Of a stretch of DNA of 34,381 nucleotides, positions 646-34,381 are shown piece after piece. Positions within the stretch are counted from its first letter, which is position 1, and every line of letters starts with the position of its first letter. A model generated the notes under the pieces. That model made no database searches and was not told the origin of the DNA. It saw only the letters and a program-made list of their open reading frames with translations. Where the stretch lies: the NCBI GenBank assembly GCA_024229615.1, contig JAAESG010000114.1:1-34381 (forward strand), given 5' to 3'. The position numbers and the translations under genes are program-made. The DNA comes from Gammaproteobacteria bacterium. Lineage in GTDB: Bacteria > Pseudomonadota > Gammaproteobacteria > GCA-001735895.

Positions 646-1791
646 TTACAGCGCAGGTTGATCATTGGTATGACAATGCACACCACCGCCATCGTACCAG
701 GATTTCAGCATTTCGATGACATACACGTCGCGCCCGGGGAAATACCCCTGAATGCGTTTCTTTGCCGCGGCATCGGTACGCGCATTGCCGAAGCCGACCG
801 TGATGACGAAGCCATTACCGACCAACCAGTTCAGGTAGTTGGTATCAAAGACCGTGTCGCGGTACTTGACCTGCCCCAGGATGGGATCGCGAACGACCTT
901 GAACCCGGCAGCGGCGATGGTTTCGGCGGCCTTGTCGTAAATACTGCCTGCGGCATTGTCGCCGGGGCGACAACGCGAATCGACGGTGCATTGCGACACC
1001 ACCACGGTATCAACATCGATAAAGCGCGCGAAACCATCTATATGGCCCCGTGTCAGGTCACCCGGCGGAATACCTTCAACCATAACGACCCGAGATACTC
1101 CAAAATGCCGCTTTAAATCCTGCTCGGCCTGTTCCCGCGTATAACCCGGATTACGCAGCGGGTCGCCGATCGTGCTCCAGTTCAAAATGACGCTATCGAC
1201 TCCATTGAACTCGAGATTGCCACGCTCATGCACAATGTCGATGTTCTCGACCGGCAATCCGAGGGTTTGACCGAGCACCGCAGGAACCCTGTTATCCCGG
1301 TGAAACGGAATCTGACTGCCAAACGCGCCACCCCAGGCGTTGAATTCCCAGTTCTGGATGCGTAGTTCGCCATTTTCGAGCAGATAAACCGGGCCGTTAT
1401 CGCGCATCCAGGCGCTGTCGGTCGGGACGTGATGCCAGACGATATTTTCGTGATCCGGATTGGCCTCGGCATCCAGCAGAGACTTGCGGGCCTGTTTTTC
1501 ATCTGCGCTAGAGGCGAACAGGATATTCAGTTTCTGATAACGACTGATAATGGCGCTTATTTGCGCGAAGGCGGGTTGAAACACGCGTTCATACCTGCCG
1601 GGCCATTGCAGCCAGACCGCTTCCTGTGGTTCCCATTCGGCGGGAACCCGTCTTTCATCATTGGTTTGATTCGCGCTCAAATTCATATTTGGACTCATCC
1701 CCAGCACTACCGCAACAATTAAGAAGCACCCGACGATAAGTCGTAACAGGTCAGATATCGCGCTTTTTCGAAACCACAAATGTTTCGTCAT
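646..1791 (-). CDS. Agmatine deiminase family protein (peptidyl-arginine-deiminase fold), membrane-anchored or exported
   Basis: Member of the PAD_porph/agmatine deiminase family, enzymes that hydrolyse a guanidino group (agmatine to N-carbamoylputrescine plus ammonia, or peptidyl-arginine to citrulline). Seen in order: WxQWPGR near the start of the domain, WMRDNGP (substrate Asp), the GNLEFNGVDSVI loop, HIDGFARFID (catalytic His/Asp), and GGGVHCHTNDQP near the C terminus carrying the nucleophilic Cys nine residues from the end. The protein begins with a hydrophobic segment (LLRLIVGCFLIVAVVLG), so it is probably exported or anchored, unlike cytoplasmic AguA. I chose the ATG at 1791; this overlaps the upstream methyltransferase by 41 bases, implying co-transcription. 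A start at 1848 is also open. The substrate is uncertain: the export signal argues against simple cytosolic agmatine catabolism. Confidence 0.85.
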   Translation of the reverse strand: MTKHLWFRKSAISDLLRLIVGCFLIVAVVLGMSPNMNLSANQTNDERRVPAEWEPQEAVWLQWPGRYERVFQPAFAQISAIISRYQKLNILFASSADEKQARKSLLDAEANPDHENIVWHHVPTDSAWMRDNGPVYLLENGELRIQNWEFNAWGGAFGSQIPFHRDNRVPAVLGQTLGLPVENIDIVHERGNLEFNGVDSVILNWSTIGDPLRNPGYTREQAEQDLKRHFGVSRVVMVEGIPPGDLTRGHIDGFARFIDVDTVVVSQCTVDSRCRPGDNAAGSIYDKAAETIAAAGFKVVRDPILGQVKYRDTVFDTNYLNWLVGNGFVITVGFGNARTDAAAKKRIQGYFPGRDVYVIEMLKSWYDGGGVHCHTNDQPAL

Positions 1792-3151
1792 TGAACCAGA
1801 TACCATTGTGTTTGTGCAAAATCTCGGCGGTGGCATCGAGATATTCACCCGACGATATTACCGGGTCGAGGCGCTCGTCTTCAATCTGTCCGACATAAAT
1901 GGCCGCATTCCAGGCAGCAAACAGGGTCGAAGTACCGATCGCTTCGCTGATCTCGGTCGGCAGGGTATGCATGTAATATCGAATAATCGACTTGGCTTCA
2001 GAACCCGCATTGAAATTGTAATTTTGCGCCCCGCGACCGAGGTATTCCTTGAGTGTCTTGATCAATTCATGTCGGTCGACCTGGAACGGGTCTTCATCCG
2101 GCCAGATCTTGCGTACCAGTTCCAGGCCCGGATCTTCACCGCAGGACTGGGCTGTCAGTAACCTGCCGCCCGGACGTAAACTTTTTGCCAGTGGCGCCAA
2201 CACGTGCCTGACCTTGAATTCGGCATTCATACGCGCGCGCCATGGCTGCGACGCGAGTATCAGGTCATAGTCCCCGCCAGCCGCCTGACCTCGCTTTGGT
2301 ATCACGTCGTCCAGCAGAAAGCGGTGATCTTCACGAAACATGACCAGCACCGAGGGTCGTACATACATCGGATTGCCGCTCTTCTCATTCGCCTTGACCT
2401 GCCAGCCGTCAACCAGCTCTTTGTCGATGCCGCGTAACTGTTCACCGAATTCGTGCGCCGAGTCGCCCTGCAGGGGCATCTCAAGCCAGTTCAGCGCCGA
2501 AGCCTTGGCGACGTCGTTGGGCATTAACCAGGGTGCCTCGGCATAGTACAGGTTGGTGATAATGATGACGCTGGACGGGTGTTCGATAAACCGGTCCGGT
2601 AACTTTTCGAGGGTCAGTCGTACGTCTTCGAGACTGACCTCCTTACCGACGATAAAAAACGGAATGGTCGGAAAACGGCGATGCATTGCGCGCATCAAGT
2701 GGCTGAGGACGGTGCTGTCCCCGACTCCGGCATCGAACAGACGCAGCGCCGGAGGCGATGGTCGGATATGCGTCAATTCCTGCGTGGCGCGCTGAGCGAC
2801 TTTCCACTTTTCGTTACAGGTATTGACGAATGCCAGGTATTTCTGGCGATTGTCGTAGAATCGAAACGGCCGATCGTCGGTGACATGTTTCATCCGTTTG
2901 CTCCCCGTAACTTTAAGCCGACTGCCCTCGGACTCGGGTTTGATTTCGACACTGTCGGGCTGCGGTGATTGCTGACTGATGTGTTCCCGAATTCGCAATG
3001 CGGTTTCGAGGGTTACATTTTTGCCGGCGCGCAGCCGAGTGCAAAGCTTGCCGTCGTTGACTACCTGTCGACCGAAGGTCGACTCGGCCATGCCGACGGC
3101 TTTGCAGAAAGCCTCCACTTCTTTTAGTAATAATCCCGTGGCGTCATTCAT
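1751..3151 (-). CDS. SAM-dependent class I methyltransferase with N-terminal HTH-like domain
   Basis: About 466 residues. The first ~60 residues form a small helical domain (LLLKEVEAF, then GMAESTFGRQVVNDGKL and LRAGKNVTLETALRIREHI) resembling the XRE-like helix-turn-helix modules found in many proteobacterial proteins. A class I Rossmann methyltransferase domain follows, with motif I at LRLFDAGVGDS and a late LAKSLRPGGRLL segment typical of post-motif strands. Substrate unknown. The ATG at 3151 is used; a TTG at 3175 in the same frame would add eight residues and neither has a strong ribosome binding site. It is followed by the agmatine-deiminase-family gene with overlap and preceded, 94 bases upstream, by the broken cupin gene. 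Fusion of a DNA-binding-like module to a methyltransferase could mean autoregulation, but that is conjecture. Confidence 0.7.
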   Translation of the reverse strand: MNDATGLLLKEVEAFCKAVGMAESTFGRQVVNDGKLCTRLRAGKNVTLETALRIREHISQQSPQPDSVEIKPESEGSRLKVTGSKRMKHVTDDRPFRFYDNRQKYLAFVNTCNEKWKVAQRATQELTHIRPSPPALRLFDAGVGDSTVLSHLMRAMHRRFPTIPFFIVGKEVSLEDVRLTLEKLPDRFIEHPSSVIIITNLYYAEAPWLMPNDVAKASALNWLEMPLQGDSAHEFGEQLRGIDKELVDGWQVKANEKSGNPMYVRPSVLVMFREDHRFLLDDVIPKRGQAAGGDYDLILASQPWRARMNAEFKVRHVLAPLAKSLRPGGRLLTAQSCGEDPGLELVRKIWPDEDPFQVDRHELIKTLKEYLGRGAQNYNFNAGSEAKSIIRYYMHTLPTEISEAIGTSTLFAAWNAAIYVGQIEDERLDPVISSGEYLDATAEILHKHNGIWFNDETFVVSKKRDI

Positions 3152-3269
3152 TGCAGCATTAGGACTGTGCGTCAAACAGGCAGCCTACGTCGAGATCAGA
3201 GCAAAAACAAGTTTTTTGCCCATCTTTATTGCAAGTGATTTTTATGGGCAGTTGCCCACTCTTGGTAAA

Positions 3270-3648
3270 CTAGCTGAATTCGCGCTTCATCAGATCGTAG
3301 TTTTCATCGGTAAAAGGACAGGCTACCCCGCTTTCCCAGTCGAGCAGGGAGCGCTCAATCGTGGTCAGTTTGACGAGGTAAACATGAATACCACAGCTTT
3401 GTTTGCCGTCGGCCGCTTCAACCGAATGGATACCATCCGGCTTGAGCGCGATGACATCGCCCGGACCCACCCGTCGAGTGGTCTTATGTACGAGCCCCCG
3501 GCTTCGCACAGGTAGAAGTGGTTGTTTTCCGCTCCCTCGTAAACACCGATGGTCGCCGTGGTCTGATGATCGTGCGGTGGCACGTGCAGACCGGGCACGC
3601 CGCAGTTCGCAGTTCCTGTACGAATTTATCCAGATTAAAATCAGTCAT
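3270..3648 (-). pseudogene. Cysteine-dioxygenase-like cupin, disrupted by internal deletion and a frameshift
   Basis: Three pieces in three reading frames together resemble one cupin. The ATG at 3648 begins MTDFNLDKFVQELRTAA. A second frame then gives LHVPPHDHQTTATIGVYEG and FYLCEAGG. A third frame, from about 3500 down to the stop at 3270, gives RVGPGDVIALKPDGIHSV and GIHVYLVKL. HDH and the later IHSV are the expected metal-ligand regions of this double-stranded beta-helix family. Between pieces one and two roughly 40-50 residues seen in intact relatives are missing. Between pieces two and three a single extra base at the C5 run 3495-3499 (plus strand) would restore the frame. It lies 18 bases downstream of the DddP-like gene, so it was probably the third gene of that operon. 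Non-functional as written, unless the assembly is wrong here. Confidence 0.75.
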
Positions 3649-3666: not shown

Positions 3667-4899
3667 TCAGTCGAGTAGATTTTCTTCATAGGGATAGGTC
3701 GTCAAGAGTTCATAACCATCTTCGGTAATCAGCACCTGTTGCTCGAGCTTGACCCCGTCGCGCTCACCCTTCGGCCCGATGTAACTCTCGATACAGACGA
3801 CCATGCCCGCCTCGAGACTACAGTCGTAAGGGTTTTCCTCACGGAACAGCGGCTTGACCATCGGATACTCATCACACATGCCAACCGCGTGCATGATGCA
3901 GGGATACGCGTTTTCGCGGCATTCTGGCGGCACCGGGTAAGCCTGTTTCTGCATTTCCTTTAATGTCATTCCGGGATAGACGAGCTTCAAATTATGTTCG
4001 ATCTCATCCACCGCGAGGCGATAGATTTCCTTCTGGCGCCGTGTCGGTTTTGCCGGGCCGCAATGGAAGGTTCGCGACAGATCGACAAAGTAACCGAATG
4101 GACCGACCATATCGGTATCGAAGCCCACCAGGTCCCCCGATTCAACCTTGCGTTCACTCGCTTCCTGCAGCCAGGGATTGATGCGTGGGCCCGAAGACAA
4201 CATGCGCCCTTCGTGCCAGTCACCGTTATTGGCGATGTTGGTGTAGTTCAGCAGCCCCCAGAGTTGTAGCTCGCTGACCCCCGGGCGTAGCGCCTTTCTG
4301 ACCATTTCGGCACCGTGCTGGCCGACCGCGATAGCCCAGCGCATGCAGGCAATCTCATCCTCGGACTTGATCAAACGGGCCAGCTCGGCAATACGCACTC
4401 CGTCGATCACCTCGATACCTCGCGCTTCCAGTGCCTGGGTCACCGAAGGATTGACGTACTCGACTGCGACGCGCCGGTTGCGGCTGCCGATTTCATCGAG
4501 GTAGGCAACGACGTCATCAGCCAGTCCTTTTGCACCCTCGTCGATGTTGGTACCGCCCTCGAAAAAGGCGTGCGGTCGGCCCGGGCGAAACTCCTGCACT
4601 TGCGGCACGTCGTAATAACAGCCATAGAAAACCGTTGGACCATCCTGGGGCAGAAACAGGTAAACCGTCGGAATATGCGACTGGAACAACATGTAACTGC
4701 GGTAATCGACCGCGTAGCGCAAGCTGATCGGGTTGACCAAAATGCACATAGCCGCATCGTGTAGTTGTAACTGCTGCTTGAGTCGACCCATGCGGTAGGC
4801 AGACATTCGCTCCAGGTCGATCTGCGGCATATCCTGAAAACGGCTTAGATCACTCCAGTTATCGTCGAATACCAGCTTGTCTACCGGGTTGGCGCTCAT
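3667..4899 (-). CDS. DddP-like M24-family enzyme (candidate DMSP lyase or related non-peptidase)
   Basis: A 410-residue protein of the M24 creatinase/prolidase superfamily. It resembles DddP, the M24-fold enzyme that cleaves dimethylsulfoniopropionate to dimethyl sulfide and acrylate, rather than true Xaa-Pro peptidases. An N-terminal creatinase-like domain (about 35-165) precedes the pita-bread domain. Ligand candidates are D261 and D263 (GFDTDM), D273 (VDLSRTF), H337 (MHAVGMCDEYP), E371 (CIESYIG) and E386 (KLEQQVL). D343 matches the catalytic Asp position known in DddP. The spacing of all of these matches my memory of Roseobacter DddP (D295, D297, D307, H371, D377, E406, E421), with a constant offset of 34-35. 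The tail KLEQQVLITEDGYELLTTYP is also DddP-like. The gene starts at the ATG at 4899, six bases after the threonine aldolase stop, with AGG overlapping that stop as ribosome binding site. DMSP specificity is inferred, not shown. Confidence 0.75.
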   Translation of the reverse strand: MSANPVDKLVFDDNWSDLSRFQDMPQIDLERMSAYRMGRLKQQLQLHDAAMCILVNPISLRYAVDYRSYMLFQSHIPTVYLFLPQDGPTVFYGCYYDVPQVQEFRPGRPHAFFEGGTNIDEGAKGLADDVVAYLDEIGSRNRRVAVEYVNPSVTQALEARGIEVIDGVRIAELARLIKSEDEIACMRWAIAVGQHGAEMVRKALRPGVSELQLWGLLNYTNIANNGDWHEGRMLSSGPRINPWLQEASERKVESGDLVGFDTDMVGPFGYFVDLSRTFHCGPAKPTRRQKEIYRLAVDEIEHNLKLVYPGMTLKEMQKQAYPVPPECRENAYPCIMHAVGMCDEYPMVKPLFREENPYDCSLEAGMVVCIESYIGPKGERDGVKLEQQVLITEDGYELLTTYPYEENLLD

Positions 4900-4905
4900 T
4901 TTCGT

Positions 4906-5922
4906 TTACCTGTAAAAGGAATGAATCGCTGTCACCGCTCTGTCTATCGCGGCACTATCGATATCGAGGTGCGTCACCATGCGGATCGGTGGCTTCTGCT
5001 CGCCGATCAGGATCTGCCGATCCTGCAGATGCAGACGCAAGGGTTCAATATCATTTTCATCGGGTTCGATAAACACCATGTTGGTGTGATGTCGCACGGC
5101 GAGACCCTCGATGCTGATAATACCCTCAGCCAGTTGTCGCGCCGTTTCATGGTCTTCAGCCAGTCGCTCGATGTTGTGTTCCAGCACATACAGCCCACAG
5201 GCCGCTATCACCCCGGCCTGGCGCATGCCACCACCGAGTTGCTTGCGCAGACGTCGTGCCGATTTAATGAAATCATAGTTTCCGCAGAGCATCGCGCCAA
5301 CCGGTGCACCGAGTCCTTTCGACAGGCACAGCATGACACTGTCAAACGGGTCGACGATTTCGGCTGCGGGCTTGCCCAGCGCGACCGCCGCATTCATCAG
5401 GCGTGCGCCATCGAGATGCACCTTCATGCCCTGTGCGCGCACAGCCTCGGCCAGTTCGCGATGCTGCTGCGGATCCTGCACCCGTCCGGATACGGTGTTC
5501 TCCAGCGACAGGGTTCGGGTAATCGGTAAATGCGGATCGTCTTCCTTGATCGCAGCCAGCACCTGGGGCAACGACAATCCTCCCCGCTCATCGGTCGCCA
5601 AAGGATGCAATACGATGCCACCCAGCGCGGAGGTGCCACCCGCCTCGGAACTGAAAATATGATATTGCTCGCCGAGCAGGATTTCTTCCCCGCGGGCATT
5701 GTGCACCAGCATCGCGGCCAGGTTTGCCTGGGTTGCGCTGCTCACAAACAAGCCGGCTTGTTTGCCCAGCATTTGTGCTGCGACCGCCTCGAGCTGGTTG
5801 ACGGTGGGGTCTTCGCCATACACGTCATCACCGACCCTGGCATCGATAATCGCCTGGTACATCCCTTCATCGGGGCGGGTTACGGTATCACTGCGTAAAT
5901 CGATAATTACTGCTTCGCTCAT
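4906..5922 (-). CDS. ltaE: Low-specificity L-threonine aldolase
   Basis: PLP-dependent aldolase splitting L-threonine or L-allo-threonine into glycine and acetaldehyde. The sequence follows E. coli LtaE nearly throughout: DLRSDTVTRP at the N terminus, VGDDVYGEDPTVNQLE, LSLENTVSGRV, VHLDGARLMNAAVALG, LCLSKGLGAPVGAML with the Schiff-base lysine in SKG, GGGMRQAGVIAA and a C-terminal IRMVTHLDID. Length (338 residues) is normal. I chose the ATG at 5922 (MSEAVIIDLRSDT); an in-frame ATG at 5931 is also possible. It is the first gene of a leftward set with the DddP-like enzyme and the broken cupin, diverging from the MFS gene. It may provide glycine for C1 metabolism; the link with the DddP-like gene is by position only. 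Confidence 0.92.
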   Translation of the reverse strand: MSEAVIIDLRSDTVTRPDEGMYQAIIDARVGDDVYGEDPTVNQLEAVAAQMLGKQAGLFVSSATQANLAAMLVHNARGEEILLGEQYHIFSSEAGGTSALGGIVLHPLATDERGGLSLPQVLAAIKEDDPHLPITRTLSLENTVSGRVQDPQQHRELAEAVRAQGMKVHLDGARLMNAAVALGKPAAEIVDPFDSVMLCLSKGLGAPVGAMLCGNYDFIKSARRLRKQLGGGMRQAGVIAACGLYVLEHNIERLAEDHETARQLAEGIISIEGLAVRHHTNMVFIEPDENDIEPLRLHLQDRQILIGEQKPPIRMVTHLDIDSAAIDRAVTAIHSFYR

Positions 5923-5988
5923 AGCTACCATCCACTGAATTCTACTGCCAATATTAGGTCGACGTGTCGATAAGGGAAAGCTTTTTAA

Positions 5989-6038: not shown

Positions 6039-7211
6039 ATGACAGACCCCGACAATACCAACATCAGAAACCTGATCGCCGCCTGCGCGTCGATTACCGT
6101 GTTTGGCTTTGCTTTCGGCATGTCTTACCCATTGCTTTCGCTGATTCTTGAGTCTCGCGGAGTCGCGAGTGACATGATCGGCATCAATTCGGCGATGATG
6201 CCGATTGGCATTCTGCTGTTTTCGAGCGTCATACCGGTCGCCGCGAGACGCTTCGGTGCGCGCAACGTCGCCATCACCGCCGCTCTCGTCACCGCCCTGG
6301 TTATCCTCTCCTACAAGGTATTTGACACACTCGCGGCCTGGTTTGTCATTCGCCTGGTTCAGGGCATGACGATGTCAACGTTATTCGTGTTAAGCGAAGC
6401 CTGGATCGTGGGTTCCGCCGGAAGTAAAAACCGCGGCAAGATTGTCGCCATCTACGCCAGCGTGCTTTCGGGCAGTTTCGGCGCGGGCCCTCTGCTGATC
6501 AGCTTCATCGGCATCGAGGGCTGGGCTCCGTTTGTCCTTGGAGCAGGCGTGGTCACGATCGGCGTCGTCCCTTTTTTGTTTATTCGCGAGGATGTACATG
6601 GCGAATCCGAGGAAACCCAGCCTTCCGGCCTCCTCAGTTTTGCACCCAAGGCGCCGATGCTACTCGCCGCGGTTGGCGTTTTTGCCATATTCGACGCGGC
6701 TTCTTTGTCACTGTTTCCGATATATGGCGTATACAATGGGCTCGACGTTTCGACTTCGGCCAATATCCTTAGCGCATTAATCCTCGGCAACGTCTTGTTG
6801 CAGTTTCCGATCGGCTGGTTGTGTGATCGCTTTGCACACCGATGGGTCCTCGCCGGTTGCGCCGTGATCACCGCGATCACGCTACTGTTGCTGCCGGGCC
6901 TGATCGACTCACCACTCAAATGGCCGCTACTAGTGCTGATGGGGACCACCGGCTACGGGGTTTATACAGTATCGCTGTCATCGCTTGGTAATCGCTTTAG
7001 CGGTATCGAATTAATCAATGGCGCCGCTGCGTTTGCGGTTGTATGGGGATTTGGTGCATTGCTCGGCTCGGTTTCCGGTGGCTGGGCCATGCTCGGCTTC
7101 GATTCACATGGCTTGCCGATCAGCCTTGGAGGCGTCTATCTGCTGCTCGCAGTCGGTATCACCTGGCGCCAGATTGCGCTGCAACAGGCAGCCCACAAAA
7201 ACGATATGTAG
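6039..7211 (+). CDS. Major facilitator superfamily transporter, YcaD/YfkF-like
   Basis: A 390-residue inner-membrane protein with about 12 hydrophobic segments. Features typical of the YcaD-type MFS branch include the N-terminal FGMSYPLLSLILESRG segment, a conserved RLVQGMTMSTLFVLSEAWI helix, the LSGSFGAGPLLI helix and a C-terminal half starting near residue 200 with GWLCDRFAHRW between helices. Substrates of this group are mostly unassigned. The stop (7209-7211) is 11 bases before the sulfotransferase-like gene, so the two are very likely one operon. The gene diverges from ltaE. Confidence 0.85.
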   Translation: MTDPDNTNIRNLIAACASITVFGFAFGMSYPLLSLILESRGVASDMIGINSAMMPIGILLFSSVIPVAARRFGARNVAITAALVTALVILSYKVFDTLAAWFVIRLVQGMTMSTLFVLSEAWIVGSAGSKNRGKIVAIYASVLSGSFGAGPLLISFIGIEGWAPFVLGAGVVTIGVVPFLFIREDVHGESEETQPSGLLSFAPKAPMLLAAVGVFAIFDAASLSLFPIYGVYNGLDVSTSANILSALILGNVLLQFPIGWLCDRFAHRWVLAGCAVITAITLLLLPGLIDSPLKWPLLVLMGTTGYGVYTVSLSSLGNRFSGIELINGAAAFAVVWGFGALLGSVSGGWAMLGFDSHGLPISLGGVYLLLAVGITWRQIALQQAAHKNDM

Positions 7212-7222
7212 AACCTAGTTCA

Positions 7223-8023
7223 ATGAGTCAGCCCGTGCATCCTGTTTACATCCTCTGGGCCACACCACGCTCCACTTCAACCGCATTCGAATGGATGATG
7301 CGCATGCGCGGAGACATGGCTTGTTTCCACGAACCCTTCGGCCAGGCCTGGTACCAGGGAGACGATGCGCGAGCACCTCGACTGGACGCGAATAGCCCGC
7401 GCAAACCAGGCCTGAATTTTGCTGGCGTCGTCGACAGATTGCAGTCCGCAGCGCTGAAGCATCCGGTGTTTTCGAAGGATATGCCGCAATTCACCGATCA
7501 CCTCTGGAGCGATGAATTCCTGGTTCGGTTCGAGCACAGCTTCCTGATTCGTGATCCGGCCAAGGTTCTGGCGTCACTGCACCGCAGCTGGCTTAAAGCG
7601 GACAATGTAGAAGGATTTACGCGAAACGAGATCGGTTTCGACGAGCAACGTCGATTGTTTGACCTGCTGCATTCGAAATCGAATCAGCCGCCGGTCGTGA
7701 TCGATAGCGACGACCTGCTCGATGACCCACACGCCATGGTCGAGCAGTACTGCGCGGCGATTGGCGTGCCATTTATTGCCGGGGCGCTGAGCTGGGAACC
7801 GGGAAGCCGCAGTGAAGTGCTGTGGTATGACGGCGACGACAGCATCTGGCACGAAAGCCTGAAGAACTCGAACGGGCTCAAGGCGCAGCCCCGCAAAACG
7901 ATCGAGGTCGAAGAACTGCCGCGAAAATTACAGGCGCTCTACGATGAATTTTTACCGCATTACCAGCACTTGCACCGCTTCCGCCTGCGTCCTAAAGCTA
8001 TCAATTCGGAATCATCGAACTGA
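7223..8023 (+). CDS. Sulfotransferase-family protein (PAPS-binding P-loop type)
   Basis: A 266-residue cytosolic protein of the bacterial sulfotransferase-like family. It starts with YILWATPRSTSTAFEWMM, where PRSTST is the 5'-phosphosulfate-binding loop, and contains the 3'-phosphate-binding region FLIRDPAKVLASLHRSW with the conserved Arg and Ser. A later segment VVIDSDDLLDDPHAMVEQYC matches the LxYExLxxDP helix of this fold. The ATG at 7223 is used; the frame is open further upstream inside the MFS gene but that would be overlap. The acceptor is unknown. Position directly after an exporter-like MFS gene suggests the pair may modify or carry one small metabolite, but this is weak inference. 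Some relatives were annotated as aminotransferase-like on poor grounds. Confidence 0.75.
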   Translation: MSQPVHPVYILWATPRSTSTAFEWMMRMRGDMACFHEPFGQAWYQGDDARAPRLDANSPRKPGLNFAGVVDRLQSAALKHPVFSKDMPQFTDHLWSDEFLVRFEHSFLIRDPAKVLASLHRSWLKADNVEGFTRNEIGFDEQRRLFDLLHSKSNQPPVVIDSDDLLDDPHAMVEQYCAAIGVPFIAGALSWEPGSRSEVLWYDGDDSIWHESLKNSNGLKAQPRKTIEVEELPRKLQALYDEFLPHYQHLHRFRLRPKAINSESSN

Positions 8024-26430: not shown

Positions 26431-27249
26431 TTACTCGCCGCGATTTTCGTCGGCAATGGGCAGATCGTAAAGGCTACCATACTGACCCAACTTGTCGTCT
26501 AGTCCGGCAAGCCGTAAAGCATGCCAGGCCATTGCATGATTGGACGAGGTCAGCGGTATGCCGAGGCTCTTCTCCAACTCGGCACAGGCCTGCATCAGCC
26601 GCACCGAGGTGCAGGAAACGAAAATGGCGTCAACCTCGGCATGTTTGAGCAGCTCACGCACGCCCTGCTCGATCGACTGTGGTGTAATTCGCGCGACCAC
26701 CGTATCCCGATCGGAATTAAAAGAACCAAATACCGGCACCTGGTAACCGCGTGCACCGATGTAATCAGAGACGATTCTGTTGACGTCGGCCGAGTATGGG
26801 GTCAACACGCCTATACGGTGCGCTTTGAATGCATCGAAAGCTGCGAACGCGGCGGTAATCGGAGTTGTGCACTTGACCCCTGGTTTCGCCAGCCGGATGT
26901 TGGCAAAGACCTGCTCCTCACCAATCGCCATCGAGGCCGAGGTGCATCCATAGGCCACCACATCGAGCGGGGTATCCGGTGTAATCACGCGTGTACATTC
27001 GACGATACGCGGCTCCATCGCGCGCAGCGTTTCCGGAGTCACCAGGTTTTCGTTGTGAATCCGGCTCTGATAGAGGGCGACGCCGTCGAGCGCCGCAAAA
27101 ACCTGGCGCCATTCGTGTTCGATGGTGTAGTCGGTGGCGAGCACGATCAAGCCAATCGAAGCACGCCGCGCGATACCCCTGTCGAGCTCATAGGGCAGAT
27201 GTTCAATCAGTCGGGTTTGGTTGATTGCTTTACTGGCTGGCTGACTCAT
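26431..27249 (-). CDS. Asp/Glu racemase superfamily enzyme, EutA/maleate isomerase-like
   Basis: A 272-residue protein of the Asp/Glu/hydantoin racemase superfamily, with the two catalytic cysteines in VAYGCTSASMAIG and IFVSCTSVRLMQ. The N-terminal ARRASIGLIVLATDYTIEHEW and C-terminal LTSSNHAMAWHALRLAGL resemble maleate cis-trans isomerases, arylmalonate decarboxylases and the ectoine-utilisation protein EutA. The ATG at 27249 has AAGG six bases upstream; a start at 27288 would run into the divergent transporter. It could racemise or isomerise a dicarboxylate or solute-derived amino acid. No other ectoine degradation gene is next to it. Divergent from a DMT transporter with a 37-base gap. Confidence 0.8.
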   Translation of the reverse strand: MSQPASKAINQTRLIEHLPYELDRGIARRASIGLIVLATDYTIEHEWRQVFAALDGVALYQSRIHNENLVTPETLRAMEPRIVECTRVITPDTPLDVVAYGCTSASMAIGEEQVFANIRLAKPGVKCTTPITAAFAAFDAFKAHRIGVLTPYSADVNRIVSDYIGARGYQVPVFGSFNSDRDTVVARITPQSIEQGVRELLKHAEVDAIFVSCTSVRLMQACAELEKSLGIPLTSSNHAMAWHALRLAGLDDKLGQYGSLYDLPIADENRGE

Positions 27250-27286
27250 AATTGACCTTACTTTTTTTGTCTGTACATACTTTAGC

Positions 27287-28168
27287 ATGAATAAAAACCA
27301 GATTGTCGGTCGAGCAATCGCTCTGGCGGCGGCGATTTTCTATGGTTTCAACACGACCCTGTCGCGGCTTGCCTATGACACGGGCACCACACCGGTGTCA
27401 CTGACGATATACCGCTTCCTGATGTCGGCGGTACTGATGATCGCGATCGTACTGATACTGCGGAAATCATGGAAGATCGCGGTCGCGCCAATGACCTTTG
27501 CACTCTGTATACTGGGTAATTTCGCCACCTCGATCGGTCATCTCGGTGCAGTTAAATATATCCCCGTCAGCCTCGCCGCAATCATTTTCTATACCTTTCC
27601 GCTGTTGGTGGTGGCTTACAAACGTCTTGCCAATCGCGAACCGGTTGCCCGCAACGAATTGCTCGCGTTTATACTTGCGTTTATTGGTATCGGGGTAGCG
27701 CTCGGAGTCGATTTTCACGAATTCGACCCGCTTGGAATCGGACTAGCCTTTTTGGGCGCTGTGGGCGCCAGCGTTTTCATCCTCAGTTACGAACGTTTCC
27801 CGCAGCAGACCGATGCCTATGTCGGCACCATGTGGATCATGATCGCAACGATTGCCTTTTCCCTGTTGGTATTGCAATTCGGCTTCGAACTGGTGCCGCC
27901 GAAAGAGTCGTCAGGATGGGTATACCTGGTCCTGATCAGCGCAGCGTCATCCACCGCATTCGTTTTATCGCTGCAGGCAATTGGTCGGATCGGGGGGGCC
28001 ATTTTCGCGCTGCTGCTGAATTTCGAGCCGGTTATCATTTTATTGCTGGCCTGGATCGTCCTCGGCGAAGAACTGACGCTGGAACGAACCGCCGGGATTA
28101 CCCTGATCGTATTCGCATTGTTCCTGAGTCACTGGAGGATTCCGCGACTCAATACGGCAAGCAGTTGA
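27287..28168 (+). CDS. EamA/DMT-family transporter
   Basis: A 293-residue inner-membrane protein with ten hydrophobic helices in two EamA repeats: RAIALAAAIFYGFNTTLSRLAY opens the first and GLAFLGAVGASVFILSYERF the second. The final FEPVIILLLAWIVLGEELTL carries the GE motif. The start lies 37 bases from the divergent racemase-like gene, and the AT-rich gap contains TGTACA, a possible small operator. It may export or import the racemase substrate. Only distantly similar in sequence to the DMT protein at 19 kb. Confidence 0.85.
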   Translation: MNKNQIVGRAIALAAAIFYGFNTTLSRLAYDTGTTPVSLTIYRFLMSAVLMIAIVLILRKSWKIAVAPMTFALCILGNFATSIGHLGAVKYIPVSLAAIIFYTFPLLVVAYKRLANREPVARNELLAFILAFIGIGVALGVDFHEFDPLGIGLAFLGAVGASVFILSYERFPQQTDAYVGTMWIMIATIAFSLLVLQFGFELVPPKESSGWVYLVLISAASSTAFVLSLQAIGRIGGAIFALLLNFEPVIILLLAWIVLGEELTLERTAGITLIVFALFLSHWRIPRLNTASS

Positions 28169-33275: not shown

Positions 33276-34381
33276 TCAGACAAATGCACCGATCATTCCT
33301 GCTCGCCAATGAGCGAACAAATATGGATATTGCATTGAAATTCCTTCCAGAAATTTCATTGCTCTTGTCTTGTGTCGGCGAAGGGGCTTGTATTTGCATC
33401 GAGCCCACCTCACCAGAGCTTTGTTTACATGATGGCTTAATCGATACAGAGCTGAACGATAGAAGCGACCGTAATAGTTAAACCAACCATTTATCATCGG
33501 ATTTAACCATTTAGCCAACTGCTCTATGCTCATCTCAGTACGTTTGCGCACCCGTAATTTTCTGATCTTCAATCGCATGGCTTTCAGCGATACCATACTG
33601 ACGGCTGGGTTAAAGCTTACAAACACACGATTGCGTTTGCGCTCCTTACACACCCGACGCCGGAAGGTATAGCCAAGAAAATCAAAGGACGTATTTTCAT
33701 ATTGTCCTTTGCGTTTGCCATCTTTACAGTAAACGATTTTGGCTTTCACTGGATGAAGCTCCAGCCCACAATCTTGAAAGCGTTGTTTCAGGACCTTCAA
33801 CATATGTATGGCTTCAGCTTCACTGTGACAGTGCACCAACCCATCATCGGCATAACGACACCATTGTGTTTTCGAATAATGCTTTTGTAGCCATTTATCG
33901 AAGACATAATGCAGAAACAGGTTACTCAGTACCGGGCTAATGACACCGCCTTGCGGCGTACCCAGCCCTCTTGCGACCCGTTCGCCATTGGGCATCTGCA
34001 TCGGCGCCGTTAACCACCGTTTGATATACAATCTTACCCAGGGTGAGTCTGTATGTTTGTGCACTGCTTTCAACAGTAAATCATGTGGAATGTTATCAAA
34101 CAGCCCTTTGATGTCGAACTCAAGCACCCAGTCCTGCCGCCAGCATCGCTGACGGGTTACACCAATTGCATCCAAAGCCGATTTGTTTGGCCGATAGCCA
34201 TACGAGTCAGATAGGAATAGTGGTTCGACTTGAGGCTCAAACTCCAGTTTGACCACCATCTGCGCGATGCGGTCACTGACTGTTGGAATACCCAAAATAC
34301 GCTCGCCACCGGCCTTCTTCGGTATTGCAACCGCCTTAACCGGTGGTGGGAAATAACTGCCTGACGACAATCGGTTCCAGA
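33276..34381 (-). CDS. ltrA: Group II intron reverse transcriptase/maturase (5' end off window)
   Basis: At least 368 residues; the frame continues through the right edge (WNRLSSGSYF), so the N terminus is missing from view. RT blocks present: AVAIPKKAGGERILGIPTV, SYGYRPNKSALDAI, LEFDIKGLFDNIPHDLL, GTPQGGVISPVLSNLFLHYVF, WCRYADDGLVHC (catalytic YADD), and FDFLGYTF. The C-terminal maturase X domain includes LAKWLNPMINGWFNYYGRF and ends at HWRAGMIGAFV. No HNH endonuclease domain follows, which suits endonuclease-minus lineages that target replication forks or terminators. Promotes intron splicing and retrohoming. It ends just before domain V. Confidence 0.93.
   Translation of the reverse strand, partial: WNRLSSGSYFPPPVKAVAIPKKAGGERILGIPTVSDRIAQMVVKLEFEPQVEPLFLSDSYGYRPNKSALDAIGVTRQRCWRQDWVLEFDIKGLFDNIPHDLLLKAVHKHTDSPWVRLYIKRWLTAPMQMPNGERVARGLGTPQGGVISPVLSNLFLHYVFDKWLQKHYSKTQWCRYADDGLVHCHSEAEAIHMLKVLKQRFQDCGLELHPVKAKIVYCKDGKRKGQYENTSFDFLGYTFRRRVCKERKRNRVFVSFNPAVSMVSLKAMRLKIRKLRVRKRTEMSIEQLAKWLNPMINGWFNYYGRFYRSALYRLSHHVNKALVRWARCKYKPLRRHKTRAMKFLEGISMQYPYLFAHWRAGMIGAFV

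Follow-up and report, generated by a model that had tools for sequence, protein, structure and literature searches.

Does a protein that carries the active-site residues of the DMSP lyase DddP, but is encoded next to a threonine aldolase gene rather than among DMSP genes, act on DMSP or on some other substrate? The gene lies in a window of 34,381 nucleotides, the whole stretch of DNA that was analysed, and the contig's named relatives belong to the Gammaproteobacteria, as had been supposed from the sequence at the outset:

3667..4899, minus strand: DddP-superfamily M24 metalloenzyme, 410 aa, ATG start

The sole Pfam assignment of this protein is Peptidase_M24, and by far its nearest solved protein in a PDB sequence search is RlDddP (4rzy, E 2e-70); the four DddP sequences in that search give E-values from 2e-70 to 5e-69, and the next proteins, proline dipeptidases, reach only 1.7e-14. 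With residue numbering fixed from the phmmer alignment, the RlDddP metal ligands D295, D297, D307, H371, E406 and E421 fall on D261, D263, D273, H337, E371 and E386, the catalytic D377 on D343 and the tyrosine Y366 on Y332, giving the complete DddP pattern of six ligands (D, D, D, H, E, E) with the catalytic Asp/Tyr. The offset between the two proteins is 34 and then 35 residues, just as the original prediction gave it for the ligands and the catalytic Asp, and judged from the alignment this agreement is far beyond chance. The C-terminal tail (ITEDGYELLTTYPYEENL) aligns with the DddP end and the N terminus is indeed shorter (410 vs 447/470 aa), both as described earlier; the predicted model aligns from residue 17, to residue 37 of the RlDddP chain. 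The residues concerned, placed by alignment with RlDddP, are encoded as follows:

4081..4119, minus strand: D261-D273 stretch with the three Asp metal ligands D261, D263 and D273
3871..3906, minus strand: substrate tyrosine Y332, metal ligand H337 and catalytic D343 (replacing a peptidase His)
3787..3789, minus strand: metal ligand E371
3742..3744, minus strand: metal ligand E386
4684..4686, minus strand: F72, equivalent of RlDddP Trp95

One way to read these data is that the protein is a hydrolase of the creatinase, prolidase or ectoine-hydrolase type that retains the M24 metal centre and acts on an N-methylated compound, cleaving an amide, amidino or dipeptide C-N bond in it. That the M24 fold also serves hydrolases (creatinase, DoeA) counts against a lyase, and five of the six ligands are shared by M24 proteins in general; RefSeq labels the relatives 'Xaa-Pro peptidase family protein', and neighbours acting on C-N bonds are found, namely hydantoinase/oxoprolinase, PAD/agmatine-deiminase-like proteins and a second creatinase-like M24 protein. 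The second-shell catalytic histidines of M24B peptidases, however, are missing: their positions in prolidase 3q6d correspond in the alignment to L244, P333 and D343, a replacement shared with DddP, in which the loss of two such histidines has been tied to absent peptidase activity (PMC5395565). The extra Asp ligand D263 and the D343/Y332 pair are retained, the NCBIfam DoeA and peptidase models give it only some 25-54 bits where their cut-offs are far higher (for DoeA, 24.7 bits against 575), and DddP is far closer than any hydrolase in both sequence and fold. The AlphaFold model (pLDDT 88.3) has RlDddP and RdDddP as its nearest solved structures (Foldseek E 1e-42, TM 0.88), and the proposed overlay on DddP gave a VIA Z of 42.8 (rmsd 2.4 Å) for RlDddP against 35.4 for the best peptidase. 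Because the ligands, the base and the tyrosine are retained and the peptidase histidines are lost, DddP-type chemistry is favoured, and we consider a hydrolase unlikely, though well worth keeping in mind.

If the chemistry is that of DddP, the protein might be a true, divergent lyase of DMSP (or DMSOP), with the aldolase and a neighbouring thiol dioxygenase handling DMSP-derived products such as 3-mercaptopropionate. Every essential metal ligand and the base listed in PMC4108388 and PMC5395565 are present, and FgDddP is active despite only 32% identity to RdDddP (PMC4108388). The NCBIfam DddP equivalog model NF043017, however, gives 293.5 bits, about half of the 600-bit cut-off. In trees built without an outgroup, the subfamily to which the protein belongs and canonical DddP form separate groups, each with 100/100 support, and several other DddP-like groups branch between them; fungal DddPs, including FgDddP, are absent from these trees. 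A joint clade of the subfamily with canonical DddP was rejected by the AU test both with an outgroup (p 0.0105) and in a rerun without it (p 0.0058), the outgroup consisting of very divergent M24 proteins from the same genome that left the root unsure. Phe72 also stands in place of the tryptophan that contacts the DMSP sulfur in RlDddP, which we take to be number 95, in a loop that is weakly modelled (pLDDT <50 at residues 70-73), and Phe replaces this Trp in 48 of the 50 alignment rows. The Trp-sulfur contact itself is described for DddP (PMC5395565). Close rhizobial relatives, moreover, adjoin betaine transport and MttB genes, and the source genome already has two canonical DddPs. The presence of these canonical enzymes, the missed cut-off, the rejected clade and the exchange of Trp for Phe together weaken the case for a DMSP lyase outside the usual clade, one of the two options raised originally, and we regard it as improbable.

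By the sequence tests run, then, the protein is not DddP. It is nearer to DddP than to peptidases and has the DddP-type Asp ligand and the Asp/Tyr pair, and sequence and model together assign it to a sister subfamily of its own inside the DddP superfamily, with the predicted 'pita-bread' M24 fold. The phylogeny that had been suggested as a check places the protein outside the canonical DddP clade and yet inside the superfamily, apart from both peptidases and ectoine hydrolases.

Members of this subfamily (at least 60% identity) were found in Gammaproteobacteria, Alphaproteobacteria and Acidimicrobiales, with Leisingera, Nitratireductor, Bradyrhizobium, Mesorhizobium and Leucothrix among the proteobacterial carriers; the hosts are marine symbionts, sediment bacteria and rhizobia, and the subfamily is rare in an even sample of the class. 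Among 28 such members D261, D273, Y332, H337, D343, E371 and E386 are invariant and D263 is kept in at least 90%; W188 and N224 are subfamily-specific invariants, and H229 is invariant within the subfamily alignment. The source genome holds six DddP-superfamily genes, the target and five more:

contigs C506, C15, C384 and C517, loci L009-L013: DddP-superfamily paralogs of the source genome (G000)

The paralogs at L010 and L011 are canonical DddPs, with 631 and 654 bits against the cut-off of 600, and the three others are more divergent (278-344 bits). In the neighbourhood of both canonical genes are MttB/sarcosine oxidase and DMGDH-like genes. The paralog on C517 has Val at the position of the catalytic Asp, and that on C384 has Gly at the DddP-specific Asp ligand. 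In a DddP-superfamily protein of Sinorhizobium meliloti pSymA (L146, 5001-6167), Gly takes the place of the catalytic Asp, and some members may thus have lost or changed their chemistry. An annotated dddP of Paracoccus yeei (L145, 3661-10535) lies between alcohol dehydrogenase, MR/MLE and hydantoinase genes, with no DMSP genes beside it, so annotated dddP genes may have other roles.

What the substrate might be is best approached through the gene neighbourhood. The following genes surround the M24 gene in the window:

4906..5931, minus strand: low-specificity L-threonine aldolase/GntG-type PLP aldolase (ltaE), first gene of the operon
3270..3648, minus strand: remnant of a thiol-dioxygenase-family cupin, intact in relatives
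1751..3175, minus strand: 474-aa protein with an N-terminal helical, HTH-like part and a possibly methyltransferase-like remainder, last conserved core gene
646..1848, minus strand: PAD_porph/agmatine-deiminase-like protein, a variable operon companion
6039..7211, plus strand: MFS transporter, divergent from ltaE and conserved in the genus
7223..8023, plus strand: Sulfotransfer_5 protein after the MFS gene, start uncertain

The order ltaE, M24, cupin, HTH-like gene runs on one strand, facing away from the MFS gene, and is kept in almost all those genomes of the genus in which the region is present. The ltaE gene, 6 nt upstream of the M24 gene, is conserved in 15 other loci of the genus. The 474-aa protein is very strongly conserved (82-89% identity in the genus); neither the window copy nor its relatives gave a Pfam match, a PDB search gave none, and its predicted model (pLDDT 38) was of no use. 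For the Sulfotransfer_5 protein, no solved relative was found by sequence. In two loci (L043 of G017 and L044 of G015) a 547-aa ORF on the opposite strand, an insertion that may be a transposase, separates the M24 gene from the cupin, and a similar opposite-strand ORF follows the M24 gene at L048.

Both neighbours named originally are real, but the downstream cupin is broken in the window: some 54 codons (about 17-70) are missing and there is a 1-bp frameshift, for which an assembly error may be responsible. No second copy was found in the source genome, nor was the cupin found at the locus of the Olavius algarvensis Gamma 3 symbiont (L052/L073); the M24 gene can therefore be retained without it. 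In 12 other loci of the genus it is largely complete. The cupin of relatives is homologous to mercaptosuccinate and 3-mercaptopropionate dioxygenases (E 3e-10 to 3e-8) and, with positions matched by eye, retains the iron-binding histidines along with the His-Tyr pair and the arginine that binds the substrate carboxylate in 3MDO; this last feature would suit the handling of 3-mercaptopropionate downstream of a DMSP lyase. The broken and missing cupins, the insertion in L043 and L044 and a diverged ortholog of the M24 gene (66% identity) with quite other neighbours could also mean that the thiol dioxygenase and aldolase are incidental and that, in the genus, drift has left the M24 protein with a minor or regulatory role. 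We hold this to be very improbable, as the M24 gene is intact in most of the genus genomes that carry it, at 80-90% identity and with all catalytic residues.

Elsewhere in the window, an MttB-superfamily methyltransferase and an EutA-like protein suggest a stretch rich in amine/ectoine-type catabolism, and a further ORF lies at the contig end:

23263..24789, plus strand: MttB-superfamily methyltransferase, no in-frame stop
26431..27288, minus strand: protein matching EutA at 220 bits (cut-off 318)
33276..34370, minus strand: ORF at the contig end resembling a group II intron reverse transcriptase (YADD motif)

Outside the genus neither ltaE nor the thiol dioxygenase adjoins the M24 gene, and both were rejected as marks of the whole subfamily. 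There, the gene immediately upstream encodes a Rieske oxygenase in at least seven loci and overlaps the M24 gene by 4-7 bp in four of them; all such neighbour counts are lower bounds, the ORF calling being mechanical and able to prefer antisense ORFs. One type of this oxygenase is nearest carnitine monooxygenase, and the other is nearest stachydrine demethylase Stc2 (which we take 3vca and 4qup to be) and carnitine monooxygenase. Proteins of the MttB, DMGDH, DAO (FAD amine oxidase), MR/MLE and SDR families recur near the subfamily genes, and on Mesorhizobium plasmids the M24 gene lies near MttB and glycine-betaine ABC genes. Downstream of the M24 gene, at least five loci have an APS kinase gene, and at least eight loci of other lineages encode nearby a sulfotransferase with 42-66% identity to the window protein, although several of these loci come from one family and are not independent. 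Gene order in the subfamily therefore favours methylated amines, with a link to sulfur in this genus. Since the neighbours vary by lineage, with ltaE and the thiol dioxygenase confined to the genus, the substrate may vary as well, or the links may be incidental; the Rieske, MttB and DAO neighbours would also suit a hydrolase. Literature searches turned up nothing usable on DddP-like or M24 proteins acting on betaines.

Taken together, the retained lyase residues, the quaternary-amine neighbours and the thiol dioxygenase fit best with the other option raised originally, a sister enzyme with a different sulfonium or amine substrate. We put at about even the chance that the protein is a lyase acting on a non-DMSP onium compound (betaine-type or sulfonium) or a thioether carboxylate; DMSP is the less likely substrate, and a betaine-type (quaternary ammonium) or other onium/thioether carboxylate the most likely one. 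By analogy with DddP, two metal ions, presumably iron, would hold the carboxylate of the zwitterion, D343 would remove the alpha proton (a mechanism carried over by homology), and the leaving group on the beta carbon would be expelled to give an unsaturated acid and a tertiary amine, thioether or thiol. Gene order would further allow that, in the genus, the product feeds the thiol dioxygenase of the operon and that the aldolase acts on a companion beta-hydroxy amino acid. A narrower form of this proposal, in which the enzyme is a metal-dependent C-N lyase that uses the elimination chemistry of DddP to release a tertiary amine from a betaine-type carboxylate, as a nitrogen counterpart of DMSP cleavage, is one we advance as rather unlikely in itself.

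Members of the subfamily are at present counted as 'Xaa-Pro peptidase' or as dddP. Among the DMSP-lyase genes in ocean data the latter has been counted as the most abundant, with survey cut-offs near E 1e-70 (PMC5395565). With 2e-70 to RlDddP, in a search of PDB size, the protein falls right on this threshold and yet belongs to another subfamily, and enzymes with other substrates may therefore be included in such surveys. If methylated amines are what the subfamily cleaves, it would represent a further way of releasing amines from betaines and offer a testable case of one active site moving between C-S and C-N chemistry.

Among known systems, DddP (NF043017; RlDddP 4rzy/4s00/4s01, RdDddP 4b28) shares with the protein the fold (Z 42.8), the six ligands, the catalytic Asp, the substrate Tyr, the replaced peptidase histidines and the C-terminal tail, but differs in sequence (33% identity, 293/600 bits), in clade, in having Trp95 where the protein has Phe72 and in its longer N terminus, and no DMSP genes adjoin the gene of the protein; W188, N224 and H229 are invariant specifically in the subfamily. 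Xaa-Pro dipeptidases and aminopeptidase P (M24B) have the same pita-bread fold and five of the metal ligands, but they match at E no better than 1e-14, and the protein lacks their catalytic histidines and has an extra Asp ligand. Ectoine hydrolase DoeA/EutD and creatinase belong to the same fold family and are likewise non-peptidases acting on small nitrogen compounds, but stand further off (model Z ~32-33 at 16-20% identity; DoeA 25 bits vs 575). As for the operon cupin, its relatives have the HxH...H iron ligands, the His-Tyr pair and the Arg168 equivalent of 3-mercaptopropionate and mercaptosuccinate dioxygenases, but match these at only 35-44 bits and have Gly in place of the Ser of the Ser-His-Tyr triad, and the window copy is broken.
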